Assembly: GCA_016281125.1 (NCBI GenBank)
Contig: JAEEIA010000065.1
Span: 1-64,000, forward strand
DNA length: 64,000 nucleotides
Direction: 5' to 3'
DNA from: Oscillospiraceae bacterium
Lineage (GTDB): Bacteria > Bacillota > Clostridia > Oscillospirales > Ruminococcaceae
Below the pieces are notes generated by a model. That model was not told the DNA's origin, ran no database searches, and saw nothing but the letters and a program-made list of their open reading frames with translations. Both the position numbers and the translations under genes were made by a program. Shown here one piece after another: positions 13,715-61,026 of the stretch (positions are counted from its first letter, which is position 1; each line of letters begins with the position of its first letter).

Positions 13715-14001
13715 GCGTTTGCAGAACCGGCCTCAAATTTCAGCATTTTGCACAATGGAAGGTGCCCAAATCTTGCGGATCATGCGCATCTGTTGCGTTT
13801 TTAACCGTTTTAATTGAAGCAAATTTCAGAAAGTACGGTCGGACGGTCATTTTTCAGCGGCGATTCTCTGTAATATTTTCGTCTATTTCACCAAACTGTA
13901 TATGGCTTTCAGCATCGTTTCAGTAAGGAATGATATGATAAGAACAATGAGGGAAGGCACTTCCGGGGATATATATGACAGAATCGGAAAGGATGGTTAC
14001 C

Positions 14002-16104
14002 ATGAAACAGAAACATATGAAAAAATACGGTGCGGCTGCCGTGACGGCCGCGGCCATGTCCCTTGCGCTGAGCACAGCGGTTCTTGCCGCTGTCAAAGGC
14101 GATGTAACCGGTGACGGCGTGCTGAATGTGGCGGATGCGGTTGCATTCACCAAGTACCTGACCGCGGAGGGCACAATCACGGATTATGAAGCGGCCGATT
14201 ACAACGGCGACGGTGTCCTGAATGCGGCAGACCTGACGCTGATCAAGCGTGCAGTCATGACAAAGCCTACTGAGCCGGATAATCCGGTCAGCGATGCGGT
14301 TGTCACTTCGATTACCTTCGGCGCATCATCCGTCACGCTGAAAAACGCAGCAGGGGAAACTGTGGATGCAGCAAAGGCGGAGAATGTCACGGTCGAAAAC
14401 GGCACCCGTGTGACAATTACCAAACCGGGCGAGTTTGACGCGGACGGTGAGTGCGCGGACGGACAGATTAGGGTTGATGTGAATGAGGAAGCCTATCCGG
14501 AAGCACAGGTGACCGTCAATCTGCGCGGCCTGACGCTCTCAAGCAAGACTGATTCGCCGGTTTATGTGAATTCTGTCAGCGATGAATTTGTGCTGACGGT
14601 TAAGAAGGATACCGTAAACACAATCTCTGACGGCACGGATTATACCAATGCTGACGAAGGTGCCGGCGCGATTTATTCGCTCGACGATATGAAGATCAAG
14701 GGCAAGGGCACGCTGATTGTCAACGGCAACTGCGGCGACGGCATCGTCTGCAAGGACGACCTTAAGATCTGGAACGGCAATATTCAGGTTACCGCCAAGG
14801 ACGATGGCATCCGCGGCAAGGATTCCGTCCGCATCGGTGAACCGGATGCAGAGGACGGCTATGAAGCACTGACAATCACCGTCAAAACGGAAACGGGCGA
14901 CGGTATCAAGTCCACGAATGATACCGCAGATTCCGGCAAGGGCTTTGTCCGCATCAGCGGCGGCATAGTCAAGATTGAATCGTATGCGGACGGCATTCAG
15001 GCAGAGCAGTTCTTTGAAATGAACGGCGGCGACGTCACAATCAGCACCTATCAGGGCTCCGGTTATACCGGCTCCGGCGGTGCATGGGGCGGCGGAGGCG
15101 GCCGCGGCGGTATGGGCATGGACGGCAACCCGAACAAAACGGATATTTCCGCAAAGGGTATCAAGGCGGTCGGCCTGTATGATGCAACCGGCAATACATG
15201 GCAGAGCATGGGCAATCTGACAATCAGCGGCGGCAGACTTACCGTGGATTCCTCTGACGATGCGCTGCATTGCAGCGGAGATATGAGTCTGGTCGGGGGC
15301 ACGATTGTGCTTGCAACTGCCGACGACGGCGCGCATTCCGATCACACGCTGACGATCGGGCAGGGTGCTGCGGATTCCTACGATGATGTCACGGTTATCG
15401 TCACAAAGGGCTATGAGGGAATCGAGGCAAAGGATATTCTGCAAAACAGCGGCACGGTCATCACAAGCGTAACCGATGACGGCTACAACGCAGGCGGCGG
15501 AAAGGACAGCTCCGGTACGACGGGCGGCGGTCCCGGCGGCGGCTGGGGACAGGGCGGCTTTGGCGGCGGTTTCGGCAGAGAAGATGCCTCCGTTACGATT
15601 CAGGGCGGCTTTGTGCTGGTCAACGTGACAAGCGGCGACCATGACGGCATTGATTCCAACGGCGACCTGACGGTTACGGGCGGCATCGTGATCACCAACG
15701 GCAATGAGCCGTTTGACTGCAACGGCACGCTGAATGTCAAGAGCGGCGTCTGGATTGAGAATTCCACATGCGGCAACTATATGGATACGCAGCCGGGTTA
15801 TTCGGTGAACGGCGGCTCGGTCAGTGCAGGTGAGCGCATTACGCTGGTCGGCAGCGACGGCAAGGTGATCGTTTCGTTCATCGCAGGCAAATCGGTCACA
15901 AAGCTCCGCGCAGGCGGCAGCGTCACGGGCGCCTCGTTCTATACCGGCGGCACGCTCTCTGATGATACGACCTATTTCCAGACTGTTTATGACAAGCAGC
16001 TTGCTGCCTACGGCGGTACGCTGACCGGCGGCACAGGTTCAACCGGTTCCGGAAGCTCCGGCGGCTATAATCCCGGTCAGGGCGGCCCTGGCATGGGGTG
16101 GTAA
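14002..16104 (+). CDS. Secreted dockerin protein with Cthe_2159-like (DUF4353) beta-helix
   Basis: 700 residues from the ATG at 14002 (AAGGAT upstream); an ATG 27 bases earlier in frame would disrupt the signal peptide. Signal peptide (1 to about 31, ending VLAAV). A complete type I dockerin is N-terminal (about 32-92), with two calcium loops (GDVTGDGVLNVADA and ADYNGDGVLNAADL). The rest is a parallel beta-helix of the Cthe_2159 carbohydrate-binding type: repeated G(D/H)GI, DDG and GG(I/K/R) turns, and Gly-rich loops (around 15060-15120 and 15520-15580). Cthe_2159 from Clostridium thermocellum binds acidic polysaccharides such as pectin; a polygalacturonate-binding or related role is inferred. 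A dockerin in front of the catalytic or binding domain is less common than the C-terminal position. Confidence 0.9.
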   Translation: MKQKHMKKYGAAAVTAAAMSLALSTAVLAAVKGDVTGDGVLNVADAVAFTKYLTAEGTITDYEAADYNGDGVLNAADLTLIKRAVMTKPTEPDNPVSDAVVTSITFGASSVTLKNAAGETVDAAKAENVTVENGTRVTITKPGEFDADGECADGQIRVDVNEEAYPEAQVTVNLRGLTLSSKTDSPVYVNSVSDEFVLTVKKDTVNTISDGTDYTNADEGAGAIYSLDDMKIKGKGTLIVNGNCGDGIVCKDDLKIWNGNIQVTAKDDGIRGKDSVRIGEPDAEDGYEALTITVKTETGDGIKSTNDTADSGKGFVRISGGIVKIESYADGIQAEQFFEMNGGDVTISTYQGSGYTGSGGAWGGGGGRGGMGMDGNPNKTDISAKGIKAVGLYDATGNTWQSMGNLTISGGRLTVDSSDDALHCSGDMSLVGGTIVLATADDGAHSDHTLTIGQGAADSYDDVTVIVTKGYEGIEAKDILQNSGTVITSVTDDGYNAGGGKDSSGTTGGGPGGGWGQGGFGGGFGREDASVTIQGGFVLVNVTSGDHDGIDSNGDLTVTGGIVITNGNEPFDCNGTLNVKSGVWIENSTCGNYMDTQPGYSVNGGSVSAGERITLVGSDGKVIVSFIAGKSVTKLRAGGSVTGASFYTGGTLSDDTTYFQTVYDKQLAAYGGTLTGGTGSTGSGSSGGYNPGQGGPGMGW

Positions 16105-30200: not shown

Positions 30201-31274
30201 TCAACGCATCAGCATACCGATCAGGTAGCTGACGACTGTGACTGCGGCTGTCACCGCGAAGAAGATTGCCCATGCCTTTCCCTTGTCAGAGGGCAGATTG
30301 CCGACGAATTTGCCGGTCTGTCCGTTCATGGCAAAGGTGTACTTGGTGCCGTTCCATGACGTGTTCAGCAGCCAGACCGGATAGAGCGCATAACGCGCTT
30401 TGGCATCGGTCAGCTCAATATGCTCATGCTCGGTATTGACAGCGTCATAGCCCTGCACGGTTTTTGCGAATTCCTGGCGGGTGCTCTGTTTCATGCGTTC
30501 CGTTGCGCGCGGCAGGCTGGCCTGTTCGTCCACATCGTAGCGATCCGCCATATAACCGGAGAGATACGCAGTCTGGAACGGTACAGCCGCCTTGCAGTCA
30601 AACGGCTCCAGAGATTCCATCAGGGTATTGTCCATTTTGCCGGAGCCGTCAACCGGAACATTCTGGAAGGTGATCGTTCCGGCTCTGTCCACTGAAAAAA
30701 CGCTGGTTTCCGTATAGGAATACTGCTGATCCGTCCAGCGCCGGATTTTTTTGCCCTGATACCGGAATGCTGCATCTGCCTGTGCATCAAACAGCCAGAC
30801 CGGAACGTATACGCCCTTGATCTCGTCAATGTGGTTTTCACTTTTGAAGATCTTGGGCAGAAGCGGTTTGCCTTCCATATGCTGAAGAAGCGCTTTTTTT
30901 GCAGCTTCCTTGTCCAGCTTGAACGGGATGACAATATCCGGTTTCAGGCCGCCGCTGAACTGTCCGGTCATAATCACAGGGTTGTCGCAGTACGGGCATT
31001 TGCTTGCGCCCAGCGTTTCATCACCGATGACCTCACCGCCGCAGGACTGGCACTGATACACATGCAGACCCTCGGTTTCGCTTGGCGTCCAGCCGTTTTC
31101 GGCATCGGGCGATGCCGGCAGTTCCTGCTGTTCGGACAGGGTATCGTCTGAGTTCAGAAAATCTGCCGGATCAAATTCAGATAAGCAGAACGGGCATTTC
31201 ATTTTTTGTGCGGCAGAATTGAATTCGAGCTTGCCGCCGCATGAAGGACATTTGTATTCGATCAGATCTGCCAT
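30201..31274 (-). CDS. Zinc-ribbon membrane protein, YdjG-like
   Basis: 357 residues. Two zinc ribbons: CPSCGGK with CPFC (about 9-30) and CQSCGGE with CPYC (about 73-95). A large soluble domain with VYVPVWLFDAQADA and YALYPVWLLNTSW follows, and one membrane helix at the very end (about 335-354). This is the layout of B. subtilis YdjG (TFIIB-type zinc ribbon), which belongs to the pspA-ydjGHI envelope-stress operon. The SPFH gene lies just upstream. Confidence 0.85.
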   Translation of the reverse strand: MADLIEYKCPSCGGKLEFNSAAQKMKCPFCLSEFDPADFLNSDDTLSEQQELPASPDAENGWTPSETEGLHVYQCQSCGGEVIGDETLGASKCPYCDNPVIMTGQFSGGLKPDIVIPFKLDKEAAKKALLQHMEGKPLLPKIFKSENHIDEIKGVYVPVWLFDAQADAAFRYQGKKIRRWTDQQYSYTETSVFSVDRAGTITFQNVPVDGSGKMDNTLMESLEPFDCKAAVPFQTAYLSGYMADRYDVDEQASLPRATERMKQSTRQEFAKTVQGYDAVNTEHEHIELTDAKARYALYPVWLLNTSWNGTKYTFAMNGQTGKFVGNLPSDKGKAWAIFFAVTAAVTVVSYLIGMLMR

Positions 31275-31334: not shown

Positions 31335-32663
31335 TTACTTCTGTGCATCGTTTTCGTCAAAGATGTCGCCGCACTCCGGGCAGAATTTCGGGGGATTTGC
31401 GGGATCCTCCGGCTGCCAGCCGCACTTGTCGCAGCGGTAGAGCGGAGCATCAGCGGGCTTGGTCTTGCCGCACTCCATGCAGAACTTGCCCTGATTGACC
31501 GTGCCGCAGGAGCATGTCCAGCCGTGTGCCGGTGCAGGCTTCGGAGAACCGCAGCTCATGCAGAACTTGCCGCTGTTGACGGTGCCGCAGGAGCATGTCC
31601 AGCTGGCCGCAGCGGGTGCTGCCGCAGGTGCAGCTGCCGGAGCCGGTGCTGCCTGCTGCTGACCCATTGCAAAGAGCTGTGCAGCATTCATGCCGCCCGC
31701 ATTCTGTGCCATGTTCATGCCCATAAACGCATTCATTGCGCCGGAAGTATTCTTGGCTGCATCCTGCATCGCCTGTGCCTGCGCACCGACCATCGTTGCA
31801 GCTGCCATGTTCGGATCGCGGTTGATTGCAGCGCGCTGTGCCTGCTTGATCATATCGTGATCCTCCGGCGGAATCGTTGCGGAGTTGATAATCACCTCGC
31901 CGATCTTGATGCCGCGCTGTGCCAGCCACTTGTCTGCAAGCGCTTCATTCAGTGCATCACAGAGCTCGTTGGTGTGATTCGGCAGATCGCTGTAACGGAT
32001 GCCGAGCGTAGACAGCTTACCGAGTGCAGGCTGGAGTGCCTTCAGGAACTCACTTCTGAGCTGCATATCCAGATTGTTGGATTCTCTCGTGAACGTGCCG
32101 TTGAAGTTGCCGCCCGTTGTGAACTGATAGAACTGCATCGGATCTGCGATGTAGAAGGAATACGTACCGTTGCAGCGGAGGCTGGAATCCAGATCCAGGC
32201 CGATGTTTCTGTCAACAATGCGGAACGGAATCGGATTCTGGGTGCCGAACATGTTGCCCATAATTTCCTTGGTGTTGAAGTAATAGACACGCTGATCGAC
32301 AGCCTTGTCGCCGCCGTGCTTGAAATCGTTCCATCCCTGCTTGAAGGACGCAACCAGACCGGCGCCGAATTTGCCGGAGAACACGCTCGGCTGAGAGCCG
32401 ATATCATAGGTATATTCGCCGGGTTCCGCGCAGATTTCCATGACGCGGCCCTGCTCGACAATGATCATGCACTGACCGTCTGCGACGACAATGCCGCTTC
32501 CGTTCGTGATGACGTTATCGTTGCCTTTGTTGTTGCCCTTGGTCTGCTTCTGACCCTGCACCATCAGAGTGCCGGCCGGCAGGGAAGGACAAATGAAATA
32601 CTCAAGCCACTGATCCTTCAGCGTGTTTCCGATCGCCTGTGCCGCAGCCATAATTAAGCCCAT
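31335..32663 (-). CDS. SPFH-domain protein with C-terminal zinc ribbons (YdjI-like)
   Basis: 442 residues from the ATG at 32663 (GAAAGGAG upstream); longer starts lack an RBS. SPFH/virion-core-like domain (about 1-290) with the typical LPAGTLMVQGQ and VEQGRVMEICAEPGEYTYD stretches. An Ala/Met/Gln-rich linker (about 290-370) is followed by three Cys-pair ribbons: WTCSCGT with CMSCG, WTCSCGT with CMECG, and CDKCGW with CPECG. B. subtilis YdjI has the same SPFH plus zinc-ribbon design and is recruited to membrane lesions by partners. Cytoplasmic face of the membrane. Confidence 0.88.
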   Translation of the reverse strand: MGLIMAAAQAIGNTLKDQWLEYFICPSLPAGTLMVQGQKQTKGNNKGNDNVITNGSGIVVADGQCMIIVEQGRVMEICAEPGEYTYDIGSQPSVFSGKFGAGLVASFKQGWNDFKHGGDKAVDQRVYYFNTKEIMGNMFGTQNPIPFRIVDRNIGLDLDSSLRCNGTYSFYIADPMQFYQFTTGGNFNGTFTRESNNLDMQLRSEFLKALQPALGKLSTLGIRYSDLPNHTNELCDALNEALADKWLAQRGIKIGEVIINSATIPPEDHDMIKQAQRAAINRDPNMAAATMVGAQAQAMQDAAKNTSGAMNAFMGMNMAQNAGGMNAAQLFAMGQQQAAPAPAAAPAAAPAAASWTCSCGTVNSGKFCMSCGSPKPAPAHGWTCSCGTVNQGKFCMECGKTKPADAPLYRCDKCGWQPEDPANPPKFCPECGDIFDENDAQK

Positions 32664-32762
32664 AGTAATATACTCCTTTCGCGTTGCGGATAAGATGAAG
32701 TGAAATACTGCCTTTCGGCAAAAATCCGTCTGTACTGTATGTTCAGACAAATTCCATGTATT

Positions 32763-51315: not shown

Positions 51316-52761
51316 ATGAGAAAAGCAAGAAGAATGACAGCCGCAGTCCTGTGCGGCACCGTGCTGCTGACGGCATTTCCGGTGAATTCCGTTCTTGCAG
51401 CTGATGAGAAGTCAGAACCGGAAGTCATGAAATGTGTCGTGACCATGAACGGCACGGAAATCACTGCCAGCAATGACAGTGTCACGATTGATGGCACGAA
51501 GGTGACCATTTCCGCATCCGGCGCCTATGAATTCACCGGCACGCTCGATGACGGTCAGATCTACGTTAAAATCGCTGACACCAACACGGATACTGATACC
51601 GTAAAGCTGTTCCTGAACAATGCGACGATCCACGGTAAATCCGGCCCGGCAATCATGATTGACAATGCGAAGAATACGTCGATCAACCTTGTGGACGGCA
51701 CGGAGAACTTCATCTATGACGGCGAGGGCTCCGGCTACACGAAGGATATTCCTGCTGCAATCTTTTCCAAGGACGATCTGACGATCAAGGCAGGCGGCGA
51801 AGCCGGTGACGGCAAGCTCCGTGTTGAAGCCTCAAAGCAGCACGGTATCCACACGAACGACGATCTGAAAATTACCGGCGGAAACATTAAAGTCAATACC
51901 GATGCTGAGGACGGCATCCGCGGCAAGGCCTCCGTTACGATTAAGGGTGGAAAAATTGATGTCAATGCAGAAGGCGACGGCATCAAATCCACAAAGGGAA
52001 CCGTTACGATTGAAGACGGCAAGATCGAGGTCAAAGCCGGTAACGATGCGATTCAGGGCGAAACCAATGTCATGATCAAGGGCGGCGACATCAAGGCCAA
52101 CGGCGACCGCGGCATTACGAATGTCGGTGCGGCTCCGAAGAAAACCGATGAGGACGAAGAAGCGCCGAAGGCTGTTACCGGTATCACGATTACCGGCGGC
52201 ACGGTCTTTGCGACAGCGACCAAAGACGAGCTGAAGGAAGGCCAGACCGAGGCAGATCTGAAGGATAATACCTTTAAGGTGAATCCGAATTCTACGCAGG
52301 CTGTTCTGCTTCTGACCACTTCTGAAACGCAGCTGAAGGATCAGCGTGTTGTCCTGAAGAACAAGGCAACAACCGCCGAAATTATCAATAAGAATCCGAA
52401 CAAAAAATTTGACTATATCCTGATTTCCTCTCCGGAAATGAAGGTCGATGAAACCTATCAGCTGTCCATCAACGACGCTGAGGCTGAGAACGGCACCGTC
52501 AAGCTGACCGGAAACATCACGACGGGCGAGAACGTCGTCAATACGAATCCGCGCACTGCAAAGCAGGGTGATTCGTATGATATCAACGGCGACGGCAGTG
52601 TTGATGTATCGGATGTTGTGCTGCTCTGCCGTTTCCTGATTGCTGATCCGGAGGCAAAGGTGACCGATGCGATGGTCGCCCGCATGGATATTGATCAGAA
52701 CGGTTCGATTGAGCCGAACGACGCAACGAAGATTTTGCTGCGAATTGCACGAATTGAATAA
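51316..52761 (+). CDS. Secreted Cthe_2159-like beta-helix protein with C-terminal dockerin
   Basis: 481 residues, RBS GAAAGGATTGG. Signal peptide about 1-29 (ends SVLAA). A parallel beta-helix of the Cthe_2159/DUF4353 type (about 45-330) with repeated DGI, GIKS and KGG turns (EDGIRGKASVTIKGG, GDGIKSTKGTV). A smaller C-terminal beta region, then a dockerin (about 420-481) with loops DINGDGSVDVSDVV and DIDQNGSIEPNDAT. Its dockerin recognition residues differ from those of the GH30 and the first beta-helix protein, so it may bind another cohesin type. Likely binds acidic plant polysaccharide, by family analogy. Single gene unit. Confidence 0.92.
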   Translation: MRKARRMTAAVLCGTVLLTAFPVNSVLAADEKSEPEVMKCVVTMNGTEITASNDSVTIDGTKVTISASGAYEFTGTLDDGQIYVKIADTNTDTDTVKLFLNNATIHGKSGPAIMIDNAKNTSINLVDGTENFIYDGEGSGYTKDIPAAIFSKDDLTIKAGGEAGDGKLRVEASKQHGIHTNDDLKITGGNIKVNTDAEDGIRGKASVTIKGGKIDVNAEGDGIKSTKGTVTIEDGKIEVKAGNDAIQGETNVMIKGGDIKANGDRGITNVGAAPKKTDEDEEAPKAVTGITITGGTVFATATKDELKEGQTEADLKDNTFKVNPNSTQAVLLLTTSETQLKDQRVVLKNKATTAEIINKNPNKKFDYILISSPEMKVDETYQLSINDAEAENGTVKLTGNITTGENVVNTNPRTAKQGDSYDINGDGSVDVSDVVLLCRFLIADPEAKVTDAMVARMDIDQNGSIEPNDATKILLRIARIE

Positions 52762-52849: not shown

Positions 52850-52878
52850 TTGCATTTATTCCAAAAAAATGGTATAAT
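52850..52878 (+). promoter_or_regulatory. Sigma-A promoter of the giant LRR protein gene
   Basis: TTGCAT (52850-52855), 17-bp spacer, TATAAT (52873-52878), then AAAGGAGG before the ATG at 52957. Confidence 0.85.
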
Positions 52879-52956
52879 AACTCTAATCGGCAATGAAATT
52901 GAATTTACCATTGCTATTGTCGCAATATTTTTGGCGTACAAAGGAGGAAACGAGAA

Positions 52957-55900
52957 ATGGCAGAACGTGTGTTCACCCGGGAGGATGCCAAAAGTTTGAT
53001 TCGTTCAAACACTGACAGGGTCAGGATCCCGTCGGATTTCACTGCAATCGACCGCGGAGCACTGGCTGGCTTCTCGCAAATGGAGGAGCTGATCATTCCC
53101 GAGGGTGTGACCCGAATCTCATCTCATGCTTTTTATACGCGGAGCTTCAAAAACACCTGCAAGCTCAAGCGGCTGACCATCCCGTCTTCGCTGACGGAAT
53201 TCGGACGCTGGCCGTTCTACGGCTGCGATGAGCTGGAAAGCGTGTATCTTCCTGACAACTTTGATCCCGCAAAGGCTGTCGAGCTGTTCTGGGACAATTC
53301 CTCTGTCATGCTTTTTTTCGGAAAAAAGACGCTGTTCGGCGCAAAGAATAAGAACAAGACCGTACAGGATTACATGACGGATAAGGATAATTTCGGAGTG
53401 CTGACGCTCGGCTCAACGCCGATGCTGGAGGTCGCACCGGATGCGTCGCTGCTGATTCCTGCCTCCTATACGTTTATTCTGTCCAGCGCCATGAAAGGCC
53501 TTGCCAGCAAGGGTATCAAGCGTCTGCTGATTCCGCGTACTGTCCGCGGCATCGGTGCCAATGCGTTTGCCTCTCTCGATACGCTGGAGCAGGTGATCTT
53601 TGAAGAGGGTACTGAGTACATCGACAACGGTGCGCTTGCCGGGTGCAGACGCCTGCGCAGCATCATTGTTCCGGATTCCGTGAAGGAAATCGGCGTCGGT
53701 GCTTTCAGCAATCTGCCCTCTTTGGAAATGGTACGTCTGCCTGTCGGGCTGCACGAGGTTGCGGATGAACTGTTCAGCAACGACAAAGCGCTGAAAAATG
53801 TCTATTTCGGAAACCGTCTGGAGCGCATCGGCGCGGGCGCTTTTGCAGGCTGCTCTTCGATCCGCAGCATGATGCTGCCGCAGGGAATCCAGTCAATCGG
53901 CAACAGTGCGTTCTGGGAGTGCAAGCTGCTCCAGCGCCTCTATGTTCCGGTCAGCTGCAAATCCGTCACACAGTCCACATTCGGTAACTGCCCGTTCCTC
54001 ACGGAGCTGCATATGCCGCGCATCATTCATGATCAGCATGAAATGAAGCGTGTATTCGGTGATATCACCAACCCGACCATCACTTGGCTTGATCCGGGCG
54101 CCGTCCCGCCGGAGTGGAAGGACGACGATATTCTGCCGGAGGTCAAGCTGGAGGAGATTCCGACCGAGGTGCCGAAGAAGCCGGTGGACTTTACCGAGCT
54201 GATTTCCAACATGCCGATTCAGGCCGCGCTCTCCAAGCAGACCGAAGAAAAGGCTGCGTCGAAGCTGAGCAAGGTGGACAGCGCATCTGTGGAGAAGATG
54301 GAACGCTCGATTGCGTCCATGCAGCTTCAGATTGCAACACTTGCAGAAACTGCACGTGAAAATGCGGCTTACGGCGTGCCGGATATTGATCAGGAAACGA
54401 TTGACCGCCTGTATCAGAATCTGGCGGTCATGCAGAAGAATTACGAGTCGCTGGAGAAATTCCAGAATTCTGCGGATGCCATGGAATCCCTGCAAAAGCA
54501 GATGGAGGACATGGAAATGATGCAGGAGAAAATCCAGCAGATCTCTGATATGCAGAAGTCTGTGCGTGAGCAGTCCAAGAAGCTGTCCGCCATTCAGGAG
54601 AAGGTCAGCCAGATCAGTGAGATGAATGCAAAGCTCGGACAAATCTCCGAATTGCAGAACAAGGTCAATGCAATCGGCGACGTTCAGAATTTCAGCGGCC
54701 TGATTTCGGAGCTGGAGGCGAAGATCGGTTCGCTCCAGGCATTCCAGGAAAAGGCCAATGCCGTTGCAGCGCTCCAGGAAAAGCTCGATTCAATCGGCGA
54801 TGTCCAGAACATGGCCAATCTGATCAATGAGCTGGAAGGCAAGGTTGGCTCCATCGCAGATATTCAAGATAAATTCGACTCGATTGCTGCAATGCAGGAG
54901 AAAGTCGAAGCACTGTCCGATATCCAGGATAAGGTCGATGCGATTTCCGAGATGCAGGAGAAGATTGACGCCGTATCCGGTATGCAGAATCAGGTTGATG
55001 CTGTTTCGGGTATGCAGGATCAGATCGGCACTGTATCCGGAATGCAGGATCAGATTGGTACTGTTTCCGGTATGCAGGAAAAGCTCGATGCCATTTCCGG
55101 TATGCAGGAGAAAATCGATGCGATTTCCGGCATGCAGGAGAAAATCGATGCGATTTCCGGCATGCAGGAGAAAATCGATGCGATTTCCGGTATGCAGGAG
55201 AAGCTCGATGCCATTTCTGGTATGCAGGAAAAGGTCGATGCCATTTCCGGCATTCAGGAAAAGGTTGATGTCATTTCCGATATGCAGGAGAAGATTGATG
55301 CCGTCGCCGGTATGCAGGAAAAGATTGATGCTGTTGCCGGTATGCAGGACCGTGTCGAAGCGATTGCTGATATTCAGCAGACCGTGGAATCTATTTCCGA
55401 TCTTCGTGAAAGCGCGCAGCAGATTTCCGAAATGCGCGAAAAGATGGATGCCTTTGCCGACGTACAGTCGAAAGTAGAAGCCATCGGCGACGTACAGGAA
55501 AAGGTTGAGGCGATCAGTGAAGTACAGGAAAAGGTCAGCATCCTGCCGGATATGCAGGAGAAGGTCAGTGTGATTCCGGAGATGCAGGAGCGCATTGAAG
55601 ACCTGAGCGATATGCAGGAGCAGACTGCGCAGCATATTGCCGCACTTGCACCGGAGGCAGCGTTCCAGTCCATGAACGCTGCAATCAACGGCGCACCTGC
55701 GCAGGGCGTTCCGTTTGCAAATGTCCCGGTATCCGAGGCGAACCGTCTGCCGGAACCGCCGTCCGTTCCCGCAGCACCGGATGTTTCGCCTGTGGTCAGC
55801 CCGTTCGCAGAGCGTCCGAATCAGGACTTGTTTGCAGGAGATAGCGTCAAGCCGGTTTCCGTGGCACCCGGACAGAATCCGTTTGAAGCCCCCGGCTTTT

Positions 55901-58900
55901 CTGCGCCTGTATCTGCGCCTGCGGTGCCTGTTCCTGCGGCTGCTCCGGGCAGCACAACTGCGGATGATCTTATCGCCGCATTTGCTGAGAATACACAGGA
56001 AGCAGCCCAGCCGGATCAGCCCGAGGCAGCAGCCGAAGCACCCGCTCCGGTGCCTGCTGCGGAAAGCAATGTTCCGTACGGCAGCTTTGATGAATGCATC
56101 GCGTTCTGCGCGATTCACAAGGGTGATTATCCGGAAACTGACCGTGTCTTTACACAGGAAATTTCCAAGCCGATGCCCGGCCCGGTTGAGCGCAGTGCGG
56201 CGCTGAAAAACTACACGGTCATCGGGTACCGTGCATTCCGCAGTTCTCAGAGCGGCGAACGTTTTGAGATTCCGGAGGGTGTCCGCCGTGCCGAAACACA
56301 GGCATTCTGGGATTCGCCCCGTCTGCTTGCGATGGAGCTGCCCGCATCCCTGACAGAGGTTGAGCCGGATGCGTTTTCCGGCTGCTCCCGTCTGGCTGAT
56401 GTGTACATCCCCGCCGATCTTTCTGAGCGGAAGATTGTCGAATACTTCCTCTTCCGGCCGGAAATCAAGGTTCACTGGCCGAAGAAGAAGATTCTCTCCA
56501 GAGCCCGCGTGGAAAGTGTCGCGGATCTCATGGAGCAGTTCGACGACATTCTGACTGCACAGAAAGCGAAAAAGCTGGTTGTCCGGAATCACATTCTCCA
56601 GATTCCGGAAGGCTTTACGACGATTGCACCGAACTTTGCACAGGGCATTGACATCCGGGCAGATGAGCCGGAGCATACGCTCTCGACCATTTTCCTGCCG
56701 CGGAGTGTCCGCCGGATTGCGGCGCGTGCATTTACCGGTCTGGAATCCGTCCGGCATATCATCATTCCGGAAGGTCTCCAGATGATCGACATGAACGCAT
56801 TTTCGGGTTGTATGGGTCCTGCCCGGCTTGTTCTGCCGGATTCCGTCAGCTATATCGGACCGTTTGCTTTTGCAGCGCCGTGCCAGTATGAGCAGATTCG
56901 TCTGCCGAAGAACCTGCGCTCGATTCCTGAAAACGCCTTTATGAACTGCAATACGCTGGTCGGTCTGCGTATTCCGAACACTGTGACGGAAGTTGGCTGC
57001 ATGGCACTGGCGGGCTGCTCGAACCTGAGTTCGCTGACCATTCCGCGCCGCTTTGAAGGCAAGTTGCCGCTGATTCTTGACGGTCCGGTCAAGATCAATG
57101 TCAGCTGGACAGATGAAACGCCGGAAATCTCTGCGGATGAACCGAGCAATGCGCTGATGAATTACGTCGATCAGCGGTTCGCTCCGGCGGCTGAGTCCAG
57201 ACTGTTCACGCCGGAAATCAGCAAGGCCTGCGATAACTTCAACGAGCGCATCAAGGAGATGCATTCTCATCCTGTTCTTGCTGCCAACTCGCTTGCTGAA
57301 ATCGCAAATCAGACAAAGTTTGAGATTCCGCTCGGCGTGATGCGTCTTTGCAGTTATACCTTCGGTTCAAATCAGCGGCTGCTGACACTGACCGTCCCGA
57401 AGGCACTGAACGAATTTGAATATGCATCCTTCTATGACTGCGAAAAGCTGCGTGATGTGTTCCTGCCGGAGGAATTCGACAAGAATCTCGCCGCGTCCAT
57501 GTTCATGCGTTATCCGTCTGCACTTGTTTATTTCGGCAATGCAAGACCAGTTCGCGTGCGTCAGCTGACCGCGGAATGCCCGTGGCTGATGACCTCCAGT
57601 GATGTTGCGGAGCTGAATGCCGAAAACGGCGTCCTCCGTGTTCCGGACGGTTATCTGATAATCGGTTCGTTTATGTATCACGGTATTCTCGGCAAGCCGC
57701 AGATCAGCAGGTTTGAGCTTGCGCCGAGTGTTCGCATCATCGGTACGCTGGCGTTCTCGAATCTGCATAATCTGACTGAGGTCAGCTGTCCTGAAGGACT
57801 GCGTGCCGTAGAGCCGCGTGCATTCATTGACTGCTCCGGCTTAAAGCGTGTTGTATTCCCGTCCACGCTGCAATTCCTCGGTAAGAATGCGTTTATCGGA
57901 TGCGGCGAATTGGAGGAGGTTGTCATTCCGCAGCGCTTTGAGGACAGACTTTCTGAGATTCTGCGTGAATGCCCGAAGGTGAAATTCACATGGACAGCTG
58001 AACCTGCCGCAGCTGCGGAAGAACCTGTATCTGCACCTGTTACTGAAACAGTTCCTGCTGCGGAAGCTCCTGTTGAAGAATCTGTATCCATCGAAGACGA
58101 GATTGCGAAGATCGAAAAGGCCGCTCCGGTGAGCGGTGAGATTCCGGAAACAGTTCCGGCAGTTGACGAGCTTACAGCATTGGCAGATGAAGAATTTGCT
58201 GACGAAATCCCGCCTGTCGAGGATATCGCAGTTTCTGATGAAACGGAAATCACTGATGTTGCAGAACCGGAGGTTCCTGCATTCACGATTCCGGAATTCC
58301 CGTCGGATGATGAATTTGCCCGTCCTTCTGAGGATATTTTGGCTGAGTTGGCAGAAGCTCCTGCTTCTGAATCTCCGCTGTTCACGATTCCGGCATTTGA
58401 AAACGAGCCGGAAAGCAGTGCGCCGGAGGTCGATACACCTGCGGATCATACCGACGGCAATTATATTCCGCCTTCTATCACGATTAAGCCGATCAAGACT
58501 GCTGTTGAACCGGCAGAATCCGATGCGGAAAGCGCAGCAGAGAATCTTACTGAGCAGCTCGAAGAGATTGCAGAAACTCCGAACGAAACAATCGAATCGC
58601 TTGAGGAAATCGCCGTGCCTGCTGCGGAGGAAATCTCCGAACAGATTGAAGAAATCGCAGAAGCTCCTGCCGAAACGGTTGAGGCAATCGAGGAGATTGC
58701 AGAGCCTGTGATTGAGGAGATCACCGAACAGGGTGAAGAGATTGCAGAAGCACCGGCTGAAACGGTTGAGGCAATCGAGGAAATTGCAGAGCCTGTGATT
58801 GAGGAGATCACCGAACAGGTTGAAGAAATCGCAGAGGCTCCGGCTGAGGCTGCTGAATGTGCGACGGAAACTGTTACCGAAATCGTACGCGAAACAACCG

Positions 58901-60927
58901 AAGCGAATGCAGAAGCATTGAACGAGGCACTTAGTGAGAAGATCATCGAGGCTGTTTCCGAGCAGTACAGCGAGGTCACAGCGGAGGGGGCTGAAAACGT
59001 CAGAGAAGCGACGGAAACGGTATCGGAAACCGTGACTGAATCTGTTTCCGAGCTGACCGAAACAATTTCTGAATCTGTTCAGGAAACAGTGAAGGAGATC
59101 ACCGAACAGGTCGAAGAAGCCGCTGAGGCTCCGGCTGAAACTGCTGAGGCAATCGAAGAGATTACAGCGCCTGTCATTGAGGAGATCACCGAGCAGGTGG
59201 AAGATACTGCAGAGGCTCCGGCTGAAACGGTTGAGGCTATCGAAGAGATTGCAGCGCCTGTCATTGAGGAGATCACCGAACAGGTCGAAGAAACCGCTAA
59301 GGCTCCGGCCGAAACGGTTGAAGCAATCGAAGAGATTGCTGAACCTGTCATTGAGGAGATCACCGAGCAGGTTGAAGAAACCGCAGAGGCTCCGGCTGAA
59401 ACGGCTGAGGCAATCGAAGAAATTGTAGCGCCTGAGATCGAGGAGATTACCGAACAGGTCGAGGAATTCGCAGAAGCTCCGGCTGAAACGGTTGAAGCAA
59501 TCGAAGAGATTGCTGAACATGTTATTGAGGAGATCACCGAACAGGTCGAAGAAACCGCAGAAGTTCCGGCTGAAACGGCTGAGGCAATCGAAGAGATTGC
59601 TGAACATGTTATTGAGGAGATCACCGAACAGGTCGAAGAAGCCGCTGAGGCTCCGGCCGAAACGGTTGAAGCAATCGAAGAGATTGCTGAACCTGTTATT
59701 GAGGAGATCACCGAGCAGGTCGAAGAAGCCGCAGAGGCTCCGGCTGAAACGGTTGAGACAATCGAAGAAATTGCAGAGCCTGCGATCGAGGAGATCACTG
59801 AACAGGTTGAGGAAATCGCAGAAGTTCCGGCTGAAACGTCTGAGGCAATCGAAGAGATTCCAGCGCCTGTCATTGAGGAGATTACTGAACAGGTTGAAGA
59901 AGTCGCAGAGGCTCCGGCTGAAACGTCTGAGGCAATCGAAGAGATTGCAACGCCTGAGATCGAGGAGATCACTGAACAGGTTGAAGACGCTCCGGTTACA
60001 CTGTCCATGCTGGAGGAAATCGTTCCGGAACAGTTTGTCCGCAAGCTGCCGGAGGAGCCGAAGCATACCGAACCCGGTTTGCTGGAGATGCCTGTCGGCA
60101 TCGAAAGTATGCTGAGCGATATGGGCAGCAGCGAAGCGCCTGCACAGCCCGTACAGGTTGCTGCGCCTGTTCAGGAAGAAGCACCCGTCCAAAAGCAGGA
60201 ATCCGTCAGCTCCGATATTCCGGCGGACGGCAAGTTTACGACGCGCGAGCGCCGCAAGATCTATCACCACGAGGCAACGCTGGAAATCCCGCGCGGTTAT
60301 CTGGAAATCCGTGCCGGTGCGTGTGCCGGCCTGGAAGAGCTGGAATCCGTCATTCTGCCTGATACAATCGTCAAGATCGGCAGCGGCGCCTTCTCAGATT
60401 CGACCGCACTGAAAAATGTCGTGATTCCGCTTTCCGTTAAGGAAATCGCGGAGGATGCATTTGAAGGCTGTGACGCAATCACAAACGTCACGATGCCGAT
60501 GGCACTGGAATGGATCGCCCCGGTTCTGTTCGGTCAGAATGTTGTCATCAACTGGCTGGAGGAGAACAAGGAGGAAAGCGATTCCATCGGGGACGGCCGC
60601 TATACCAGACAGCTTCGCAAGGAGCTTTATCACGGTGAACCGACGCTGATTATTCCTGAGGGTATCACGGAAATCCGTCCGGGCGCCTGCGCCGGTCTGG
60701 AAACCATGACAGAAGTCGTCCTGCCAAGCACTCTGACAAAGATCTGCTCCGGCGCGTTCTCCGAATGCGTTTCGCTGCGCGTGCTGGATATCCCGGCCTC
60801 TGTTACCGAACTGGAGGAGGATGCCTTCGAGGACTGCACGTCCCTGCGCATGGTTGCGATTCCGTCGCATCTGGAAAAACAGGCAAGAGCCTGCTTCCCG
60901 GAGGCTGACCTCGCAATTCTTGACTGA
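52957..60927 (+). CDS. Giant cytoplasmic BspA-type LRR protein with decapeptide coil and 29-residue acidic repeats
   Basis: 2,656 residues, one unbroken frame. Order: LRR module 1 (1 to about 380, BspA/LRR_5 units such as LRSIIVPDSVKEIGVGAF); linker; long helical region about 439-912 with a 10-residue period (AISGMQEKID and variants); Pro/Ala linker about 912-1042; LRR module 2 (about 1042-1388) and module 3 (about 1402-1682), both with half-repeats shared with module 1 (LPDNFDPAK / LPEEFDKNL); acidic segment about 1682-2352 with thirteen or so 29-residue repeats (EEITEQVEEIAEAPAETVEA core); two short LRR modules at the C-terminus (about 2422-2656). No signal peptide, membrane helix, dockerin or sorting signal, so it should stay in the cytoplasm; most BspA-type LRR proteins are surface proteins. 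Function unknown. Own promoter and terminator. Confidence 0.9.
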   Translation: MAERVFTREDAKSLIRSNTDRVRIPSDFTAIDRGALAGFSQMEELIIPEGVTRISSHAFYTRSFKNTCKLKRLTIPSSLTEFGRWPFYGCDELESVYLPDNFDPAKAVELFWDNSSVMLFFGKKTLFGAKNKNKTVQDYMTDKDNFGVLTLGSTPMLEVAPDASLLIPASYTFILSSAMKGLASKGIKRLLIPRTVRGIGANAFASLDTLEQVIFEEGTEYIDNGALAGCRRLRSIIVPDSVKEIGVGAFSNLPSLEMVRLPVGLHEVADELFSNDKALKNVYFGNRLERIGAGAFAGCSSIRSMMLPQGIQSIGNSAFWECKLLQRLYVPVSCKSVTQSTFGNCPFLTELHMPRIIHDQHEMKRVFGDITNPTITWLDPGAVPPEWKDDDILPEVKLEEIPTEVPKKPVDFTELISNMPIQAALSKQTEEKAASKLSKVDSASVEKMERSIASMQLQIATLAETARENAAYGVPDIDQETIDRLYQNLAVMQKNYESLEKFQNSADAMESLQKQMEDMEMMQEKIQQISDMQKSVREQSKKLSAIQEKVSQISEMNAKLGQISELQNKVNAIGDVQNFSGLISELEAKIGSLQAFQEKANAVAALQEKLDSIGDVQNMANLINELEGKVGSIADIQDKFDSIAAMQEKVEALSDIQDKVDAISEMQEKIDAVSGMQNQVDAVSGMQDQIGTVSGMQDQIGTVSGMQEKLDAISGMQEKIDAISGMQEKIDAISGMQEKIDAISGMQEKLDAISGMQEKVDAISGIQEKVDVISDMQEKIDAVAGMQEKIDAVAGMQDRVEAIADIQQTVESISDLRESAQQISEMREKMDAFADVQSKVEAIGDVQEKVEAISEVQEKVSILPDMQEKVSVIPEMQERIEDLSDMQEQTAQHIAALAPEAAFQSMNAAINGAPAQGVPFANVPVSEANRLPEPPSVPAAPDVSPVVSPFAERPNQDLFAGDSVKPVSVAPGQNPFEAPGFSAPVSAPAVPVPAAAPGSTTADDLIAAFAENTQEAAQPDQPEAAAEAPAPVPAAESNVPYGSFDECIAFCAIHKGDYPETDRVFTQEISKPMPGPVERSAALKNYTVIGYRAFRSSQSGERFEIPEGVRRAETQAFWDSPRLLAMELPASLTEVEPDAFSGCSRLADVYIPADLSERKIVEYFLFRPEIKVHWPKKKILSRARVESVADLMEQFDDILTAQKAKKLVVRNHILQIPEGFTTIAPNFAQGIDIRADEPEHTLSTIFLPRSVRRIAARAFTGLESVRHIIIPEGLQMIDMNAFSGCMGPARLVLPDSVSYIGPFAFAAPCQYEQIRLPKNLRSIPENAFMNCNTLVGLRIPNTVTEVGCMALAGCSNLSSLTIPRRFEGKLPLILDGPVKINVSWTDETPEISADEPSNALMNYVDQRFAPAAESRLFTPEISKACDNFNERIKEMHSHPVLAANSLAEIANQTKFEIPLGVMRLCSYTFGSNQRLLTLTVPKALNEFEYASFYDCEKLRDVFLPEEFDKNLAASMFMRYPSALVYFGNARPVRVRQLTAECPWLMTSSDVAELNAENGVLRVPDGYLIIGSFMYHGILGKPQISRFELAPSVRIIGTLAFSNLHNLTEVSCPEGLRAVEPRAFIDCSGLKRVVFPSTLQFLGKNAFIGCGELEEVVIPQRFEDRLSEILRECPKVKFTWTAEPAAAAEEPVSAPVTETVPAAEAPVEESVSIEDEIAKIEKAAPVSGEIPETVPAVDELTALADEEFADEIPPVEDIAVSDETEITDVAEPEVPAFTIPEFPSDDEFARPSEDILAELAEAPASESPLFTIPAFENEPESSAPEVDTPADHTDGNYIPPSITIKPIKTAVEPAESDAESAAENLTEQLEEIAETPNETIESLEEIAVPAAEEISEQIEEIAEAPAETVEAIEEIAEPVIEEITEQGEEIAEAPAETVEAIEEIAEPVIEEITEQVEEIAEAPAEAAECATETVTEIVRETTEANAEALNEALSEKIIEAVSEQYSEVTAEGAENVREATETVSETVTESVSELTETISESVQETVKEITEQVEEAAEAPAETAEAIEEITAPVIEEITEQVEDTAEAPAETVEAIEEIAAPVIEEITEQVEETAKAPAETVEAIEEIAEPVIEEITEQVEETAEAPAETAEAIEEIVAPEIEEITEQVEEFAEAPAETVEAIEEIAEHVIEEITEQVEETAEVPAETAEAIEEIAEHVIEEITEQVEEAAEAPAETVEAIEEIAEPVIEEITEQVEEAAEAPAETVETIEEIAEPAIEEITEQVEEIAEVPAETSEAIEEIPAPVIEEITEQVEEVAEAPAETSEAIEEIATPEIEEITEQVEDAPVTLSMLEEIVPEQFVRKLPEEPKHTEPGLLEMPVGIESMLSDMGSSEAPAQPVQVAAPVQEEAPVQKQESVSSDIPADGKFTTRERRKIYHHEATLEIPRGYLEIRAGACAGLEELESVILPDTIVKIGSGAFSDSTALKNVVIPLSVKEIAEDAFEGCDAITNVTMPMALEWIAPVLFGQNVVINWLEENKEESDSIGDGRYTRQLRKELYHGEPTLIIPEGITEIRPGACAGLETMTEVVLPSTLTKICSGAFSECVSLRVLDIPASVTELEEDAFEDCTSLRMVAIPSHLEKQARACFPEADLAILD
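54520..55640 (+). repeat. 30-bp direct repeats encoding a decapeptide coil
   Basis: About 37 units of 30 bp inside the giant gene; those at about 55095-55200 are near-identical. Encoded core AISGMQEKID, with hydrophobics at spacing 4-3-3. Confidence 0.9.
58575..59990 (+). repeat. 87-bp direct repeats encoding a 29-residue acidic unit
   Basis: Three units, a diverged stretch with Glu/Ser/Thr-rich VSETVTESVS-type sequence (about 58850-59090), then ten more units. Glu makes up about a third of residues. Confidence 0.9.
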
Positions 60928-60934
60928 TCCTATA

Positions 60935-60977
60935 CAAAAAATCGCCGCAAAGCTGATGGTTTTGCGGCGATTTTTCT
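60935..60977 (+). terminator. Terminator of the giant gene
   Basis: AAAAATCGCCGCAAA, 8-base loop, TTTTGCGGCGATTTTT. Confidence 0.92.
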
Positions 60978-61026
60978 GTAATCAGGCAGAACTCTGCGTA
61001 TTCAGCGAAAATCTGTCGAAATCCTC

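Follow-up and report, generated by a model that had tools for sequence, protein, structure and literature searches.

A giant leucine-rich repeat protein with a long decad coil, a candidate cytoplasmic scaffold kept by most sampled members of one bacterial genus

A single gene of 7,971 bp occupies positions 52957 to 60927 on the forward strand of the DNA analysed here, a stretch of 64,000 nucleotides referred to below as the window. Its frame begins with ATG, runs without internal stop and encodes 2656 amino acids, arranged as modules of leucine-rich repeats (LRR) separated by a coil and by linkers. The locus contains the following features:

52850–52878, + strand: sigma-A type promoter, TTGCAT, 17 bp, TATAAT, with extended −10 TGG (read from the sequence)
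52940–52949, + strand: ribosome binding site AAAGGAGGAA, 7 bases 5' of the ATG (conserved in 20 aligned upstream regions)
52957–60927, + strand: giant LRR protein gene, 2656 aa (open frame and orthologs)
52957–53946, + strand: LRR module N, residues 1–330, start RVFTREDAK (Pfam, module alignment, orthologs)
54397–55626, + strand: decad coil, residues 481–890, consensus [MLIV]QEK[VI][DE]A[IL]S[DE] (periodicity analysis)
55627–56076, + strand: proline/alanine-rich linker, residues 891–1040 (sequence)
56134–57129, + strand: LRR module M1, start DRVFTQEISK (Pfam, ortholog comparison, module alignment)
57190–58002, + strand: LRR module M2, start SRLFTPEISK (ortholog comparison, module alignment)
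58003–60213, + strand: acidic linker, residues 1683–2419, net charge −215 over 737 residues, carrying a 29-residue repeat (sequence, TRF)
60220–60579, + strand: short LRR module C1, start DGKFTTRERRK (module alignment)
60586–60924, + strand: short LRR module C2, start DGRYTRQLRK (module alignment)
60933–60980, + strand: intrinsic terminator hairpin followed by a T run (fold of 60930–60985)

The gene was compared in 20 sequences, namely the window protein and its orthologs L031–L046 and L048–L050; L047, which has a stop near its start, and L051, which has no N-terminus, were left out. Nine of these proteins are present from start to stop and measure 1803–2656 aa, and the other 11 are cut at their 3' side by a contig end. 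Of the 20 start codons, 19 are ATG and one is GTG. In the window, the ATG is preceded by AAAGGAGG, and the promoter lies 5' of this segment; its columns CTTG and ATG.TA.AAT are invariant in all 20 aligned upstream regions. A mechanical scan did not list the TTGCAT-17-TATAAT promoter, because the −35 agrees with the consensus at only three of six bases. At the other end of the gene, the terminator hairpin folds with −28.2 kcal/mol (z −8.3). The presence of its own promoter and its own terminator supports the giant gene as a transcription unit of its own, and the description in an earlier note on this DNA, that of a single intact gene with good promoter, ribosome binding site and terminator, is borne out. 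Rfam gave no match at the locus. Two antisense frames, 54790–57270 (− strand, 826 aa) and 57841–60270 (− strand, 809 aa), lie over the repeats and in all likelihood arise from the codon usage there.

The LRR_5 family of Pfam (PF13306) matches nine separate stretches of the protein (E 4e-138; 453.8 bits against a gathering cut-off of 27.7), and LRR_8, which is also a leucine-rich repeat, is the only other Pfam family above its curated cut-off. The M block matches LRR_5 in all 20 sequences. Three modules are large (N, M1, and M2, about 270–330 aa) and two are short (C1 and C2, about 115 aa); all five can be aligned and have in common an F/Y-T start (RVFTREDAK, RVFTQEISK, RLFTPEISK, GKFTTRERRK, and GRYTRQLRK). 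The N block conserved among orthologs extends to residue 380 (nt 54096) and, when these first 380 residues are used as query, it resembles M1 regions at 30–35% and M2 regions at 29–32% among the matches listed. From this likeness of the modules, the giant protein seems to have grown through duplication of an LRR module. Other proteins share the module start: a narrow F/Y-T motif had two matches in 105 non-ortholog loci (one being the ortholog of genome G017, the other weak), but a loose version had 17 matches in 104 loci, mostly inside other LRR proteins and once at the start of the L126 frame. No family of the Pfam or NCBIfam libraries covers the full length, and neither library detects an enzyme domain above its curated cut-off. 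The earlier note knew of no described family with this order of modules, which agrees with the libraries, in which the LRR_5 modules are recognized and nothing spans the whole.

Between modules N and M1 lies the coil. TRF detects a period of 30 nt in 15.3 copies at 54892–55349, a DNA array inside the coil, and the hydrophobic residues of the window protein recur there with a period of 3.34 (10/3) at a power of 70.9, far above 8.2, the 95% level of maxima from 100 shuffled sequences computed on a coarser period grid. The decapeptide period that had been noted for this region is confirmed. In 19 of the 20 sequences, the hydrophobic period is 3.31–3.40, each time over the sequence's own shuffle level, and not the 3.5 or 3.67 of heptads or hendecads; among the 20, only L045 has no decad coil. 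The profile pooled from 518 decads of the 19 sequences reads [MLIV]-Q-E-K-[VI]-[DE]-A-[IL]-S-[DE] with hydrophobic residues at positions 1, 5, and 8 of the decad. Under a strict phase rule (every window within 30 degrees of the mean), the coil stays in phase over 110–370 residues in the 19 sequences, the window protein having 370 (residues 521–890), or about 37 successive decads; a more lenient rule, which allows the phase to drift by less than 45 degrees from one step to the next, gives 110–410 residues. In five of the 19 (L036, L037, L042, L043, and L044), the core at position 1 drops to 0.46–0.59, which hints that the register shifts partway along the coil. Coil dN/dS in the pairs tested was 0.07–0.21, a rough value given that dS is near or above 1 in many of them. 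The suggestion that the protein serves as a size ruler was dropped, because the strict in-phase length varies among the 19 sequences and L045 does without a coil.

The spacing of this coil is that of stammers, i.e., [4,3,3] with 10/3 = 3.33 residues per turn (PMC4786415, PMC9369452). In the available text of Hartmann and colleagues, 10/3 is assumed to be the lower limit of coiled-coil periodicity, and the stammers of which the authors knew are described as absorbed by 3-10 segments (PMC4786415). However, the decads presented in these sources are local and relieved by a short 3-10 helix (PMC4786415, PMC9369452), whereas about 37 follow each other in phase here. In the literature consulted, there was no recognisable description of the giant protein or of long decad arrays in cellular proteins. 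A search for the decad coil elsewhere in the phylum, with at most 12 candidates scored per genome, returned two of 199 genomes at 1e-6: the window's own, and one with an SbcC-like frame (by eye) at 19% identity. Matches to SpiroCoCo, Rad50, SMC, and ZorA were set aside, as they are under the curated cut-offs and located on the coil or linker; a literature search gave no paper on SpiroCoCo.

The linker between the M and C modules is negatively charged in all 20 sequences and nearly free of K and R. In the window, TRF finds a period of 87 nt in 10.3 copies at 59093–59987, which corresponds to the 29-residue repeat. However, 29 is the strongest lag of this linker only in the window protein, L031, and L034; the other 15 measured linkers have lags that include 33, 11, 20, 6, 19, 35, 38, 7, 15, 31, 34, 47, and 43, several of them weak, and those of L042 and L043 are too short for measurement. 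The unit changes from one lineage to the next, with composition kept and sequence not, which makes the 29-mer a locally expanded repeat and rules out a conserved 29-mer rod. The earlier note had described LRR modules of BspA type at both ends and in the middle, joined by two rods; both connecting segments were found, but of the two only the coil is conserved. For the acidic linker, a flexible, self-repelling spacer is the reading that fits best. A short ALADALF-like motif in this linker was also considered and set aside, being present in 5/20 sequences only.

The distribution of the gene was studied in 30 genomes of the genus, including the window's own, with the first 380 residues as query. 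At E 1e-20 all 30 genomes match, but an ortholog is found in 21 of them (47–100% identity), the other matches being other LRR regions. Further parts of the gene lie at contig edges in G007 (L051) and G017 (L101), so that 23 of the 30 genomes hold it whole or in part. Six of the remaining seven (G006, G013, G014, G018, G020, and G026) have neither the giant gene nor a fakA match at 1e-60, which suggests that the locus may be unassembled there. In the last one, G028, the gene is absent before asp23 and an EAL-domain-like frame stands in its place (by eye; L102, 4180–5030). The contigs of many genomes show the same architecture, which rules out an assembly artefact or a fragment, as the earlier note had considered. 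In genome G025, the ortholog L047 carries a stop codon near the gene start, either a real lesion or an assembly error.

No orthologs were found outside the genus in our searches. The M profile at 1e-80, with at most six candidates scored per genome, recovered three of 197 genomes, all of the same genus and one of them the window's own, and five genomes of other genera have asp23-fakA without a giant gene in the ~10 kb upstream. A pattern scan of one genome per GTDB species gave 29 loci, comprising 21 orthologs at 57–88% and eight others at ≤27%; the 21 are contigs already counted in the genus set and add no new cases. All 21 carry the label MAG, and the gut of goat, sheep, buffalo, deer, horse, and pig is named as their source.

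Within the genus, the orthologs keep the same order of parts. Block M, which is better conserved than the other long blocks, has a mean column identity of 74% in the 20 sequences, while the spacing between N and M ranges from 306 to 661 residues and that between M and C, in the nine complete proteins, from 230 to 738. In the pairs tested, dN/dS was 0.02–0.18 for the LRR blocks N, M, and C; because dS is close to 1 or higher for many of them, these values are a rough indication of purifying selection on the giant gene.

The genomic environment is also largely fixed, in answer to the earlier note's question about neighbours in other genomes. In 18 of the 20 loci L031–L050, the gene immediately upstream is a Cthe_2159-dockerin gene (it is missing in L041, and L046 has only 1.15 kb upstream), and asp23 then fakA lie downstream in eight of the nine fetched loci that run past the stop (not in L046), as well as in the window and in L101. 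These fixed neighbours identify the giant gene as a long-standing resident of one genomic place. They are no proof of shared function, since the gene has its own promoter and terminator, and a multi-gene system finds no support. In the window, the Cthe_2159/dockerin-like frame that precedes the giant gene (51316–52761) is confirmed by Pfam, and another such frame was seen by eye at 13975–16104.

With respect to location, hydropathy analysis revealed no signal peptide or membrane segment in the 20 sequences: the maximum over 19 residues is 1.29 in the window protein and 1.15–1.54 in the 19 orthologs, 11 of which are cut at 3' by a contig end. Pfam at E 0.01 detects no dockerin or anchor in the window protein. 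A start hidden upstream that would supply a signal peptide was rejected, as the ATG/GTG start and the promoter are conserved in the 20 sequences. The protein thus has neither the signal peptide nor the surface attachment of BspA-like surface adhesins, as had been noted from the window alone, and we infer that it is cytoplasmic. Unconventional export could still occur, because a missing N-terminal signal does not preclude another route.

The idea that LRR_5 proteins without a signal peptide are unusual was overstated. A sample of the LRR_5 frames of the window's own genome was drawn by picking 24 by motif from 39 fetched regions. A signal-like hydropathy cut-off is passed by 15 of the 24, and in most of the others visual inspection shows a start resembling a signal, a signal upstream in the same frame or an end like that of a dockerin. 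Two of the 24, L126 (797 aa) and L135 (1109 aa), have none of these export features by eye and possibly represent further inner-cell LRR proteins. Like the giant protein, they are LRR_5 arrays lacking a signal peptide; unlike it, they contain no decad coil (by eye). The L135 frame has a long, charged, proline-rich tail of low complexity, and that of L126 has an F-T start like the modules of the giant protein. A short LRR_5 frame without signal peptide was also seen by eye in another genome (L176, genome G106); it starts with MSDFIIKNGVLEKYTG and lies in the same stretch as a macrodomain-like frame.

The closest likenesses of the coil are to phage fibres. Its best PDB match is 9lc0_A ('60 kDa protein'; E 1.2e-7 over 171 gap-free residues), the sequence of which is identical to 9yf4 and 9yf5. 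According to the available text, 9YF4 and 9YF5 are N4 tail entries that model the N-terminus (~1–80) of the 'appendage trimer' gp66 (PMC12633501). This entry list, together with a PHROG 'appendage' of equal length (556), indicates that 9lc0_A is probably N4 gp66, the modelled part of which overlaps the matched stretch (45–215) only partly. When the coil only was searched against PHROGs, the top family was 22415 (E 1e-15, no known function), and 29955 'appendage' (E 7e-11) and the tail fiber family 22284 (E 6e-10) also matched. In tblastn, 44 of 50,697 phage records match the coil, the best 15 of the 44 being PhiCh1 and Pelagibacter phages, most of them annotated as tail fibre, at 19–33% identity. 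Two of these fibres have the same periodicity, with a peak of 3.34 and a lag-10 identity of 0.44 in Pelagibacter phage HTVC142P, and a peak of 3.36 and a lag-10 identity of 0.64 (residues 101–300) in ORF34 of Natrialba phage PhiCh1; in both, this is confined to part of the protein.

The giant protein therefore shares the decad coil repeat with tail fibres and the N4 appendage. It differs from them in having no virion domains and no phage context: its gene is chromosomal, with bacterial neighbours, and LRR is all that Pfam finds above cut-off in the whole protein. Given identities of 19–33%, convergence appears as likely as common origin, and the repetitive composition leaves homology unproven. 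A mobile origin was rejected; three plasmid records have LRR proteins at 22–26% identity, and a pattern-based scan for relatives of module M in viral contigs gave none.

Taken together, the slowly evolving LRR blocks, the conserved coil and the varying spacers suggest a multivalent cytoplasmic scaffold. This is our best guess, a tentative one with somewhat less than an even chance, and the helical rod, the trimer, binding by the LRR modules, the scaffolding role and the location are all inferred. The five related LRR_5 modules would be the binding parts, and the coil between N and M1 would form a long helical rod of ~55–60 nm (370–410 residues at 0.15 nm each). By analogy with what is reported for phage appendages, the coil may join three chains in parallel, which would bring up to 15 LRR modules into one particle, with the proline-rich and acidic linkers as flexible, repulsive spacers. 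Against this reading, L045 indicates that at least one species does without the coil, five of the 19 coils show signs of a shifted register, the trimer is borrowed from phage fibres of 19–33% identity (best 15 of 44), most of the 24 sampled LRR_5 frames of the same genome look secreted, and F/Y-T starts in other LRR_5 proteins mean that the module start does not mark the giant protein alone. Of the roles put forward in the earlier note (scaffold, filament or ruler), the scaffold is the one retained; no evidence was found for a filament.

The location is the point on which a surface or envelope adhesin, an extreme BspA-like protein exported without an N-terminal signal peptide, would depart from a cytoplasmic scaffold. 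All five modules are of the LRR_5/BspA type (TpLRR) and resemble cell-surface proteins: the M profile matches 4fs7 (E 4e-45) and 4gt6 (E 6e-40), the latter entitled 'Cell surface protein'. Signal-like starts predominate in the sampled LRR_5 frames of the genome (15 of 24, more by eye), virus fibres, whose place of action is outside the cell, also contain decad coils, and the opposite strand upstream of the giant gene carries a gene for an ABC transporter. However, the giant protein differs from these proteins in that its five modules are strung along a decad coil plus an acidic linker, with no signal peptide or membrane helix in the 20 sequences and no dockerin or anchor in the window protein. 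The conserved start and promoter make a hidden upstream start unlikely, and, the ABC transporter aside, none of the five window neighbours scanned with Pfam is secretion-like. The protein also reaches only 171.1 of the 1250 bits of the NCBIfam curated cut-off for the HupY/LrrG adhesin (NF047961), and we regard an adhesin as unlikely. A cytoskeletal filament or cell-shape protein, with decad coils packed end to end or side by side and LRR modules decorating them or tying them to the envelope, is improbable as well. In its favour are the long coil in a single register, the near-consensus −10 and the usual place beside asp23, which is related to the cell envelope according to Pfam; on the other hand, coil length is not fixed, L045 lacks the coil, a terminator separates the neighbouring genes, and crescentin and intermediate filaments are heptad coils.

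The combination of LRR with an oligomerising coil is a common sensor layout, and an intracellular recognition protein (directed, e.g., at phage or damaged proteins) would sense through the LRR, oligomerise through the coil and need an unlinked effector. The LRR blocks of the giant protein evolve slowly and its genomic place is mostly fixed, both of which speak against such a role. PADLOC matches (best E 3.5e-13) come from profiles of ZorA, which fall on the acidic linker, and of LmuB, which fall on the coil region; for ZorA of the anti-phage Zorya system, the NCBIfam scores are only 21.2 bits (cut-off 250) and 19.6 bits (cut-off 100), and hydropathy shows no ZorA-type membrane segment, i.e., no helix of MotA type. 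Recognition is quite improbable, and a lipid- or granule-surface protein with acidic amphipathic helices, similar to apolipoproteins or phasins, is very improbable. The latter draws on a fatty-acid kinase-like gene downstream and on Pfam scores for Apolipoprotein (40.2 of 90 bits), ApoLp-III (18.2 of 36.3), and Phasin_2 (17.9 of 24.9). Against it, each of these scores falls short of its curated cut-off, the acidic repeat changes from lineage to lineage, and K and R are all but absent from the linker.

A bolder form of the scaffold reading, possible in our view and rather doubtful, is that the protein would be the first cellular, cytoplasmic member of a class of continuous decad coils, in which ~37 decads in phase at the proposed lower limit of periodicity hold three LRR-bearing chains as a tail-fibre-like inner scaffold, a core component of one genus. 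A protein of 1803–2656 aa kept by most sampled genus members suggests that the cell architecture of these uncultured, Ruminococcus-like gut bacteria includes a part not yet described. In addition, its coil offers a natural case, tested by evolution, of the periodicity taken as a limit in coiled-coil theory (PMC4786415), and decads serving phage fibres as well as a protein inside the cell would hint at a rod design of general use. Elsewhere in the window, an SPFH or virion-core-like frame with zinc ribbons (31335–32750, − strand) lies beside a zinc-ribbon frame (30201–31274, − strand), both seen by eye.
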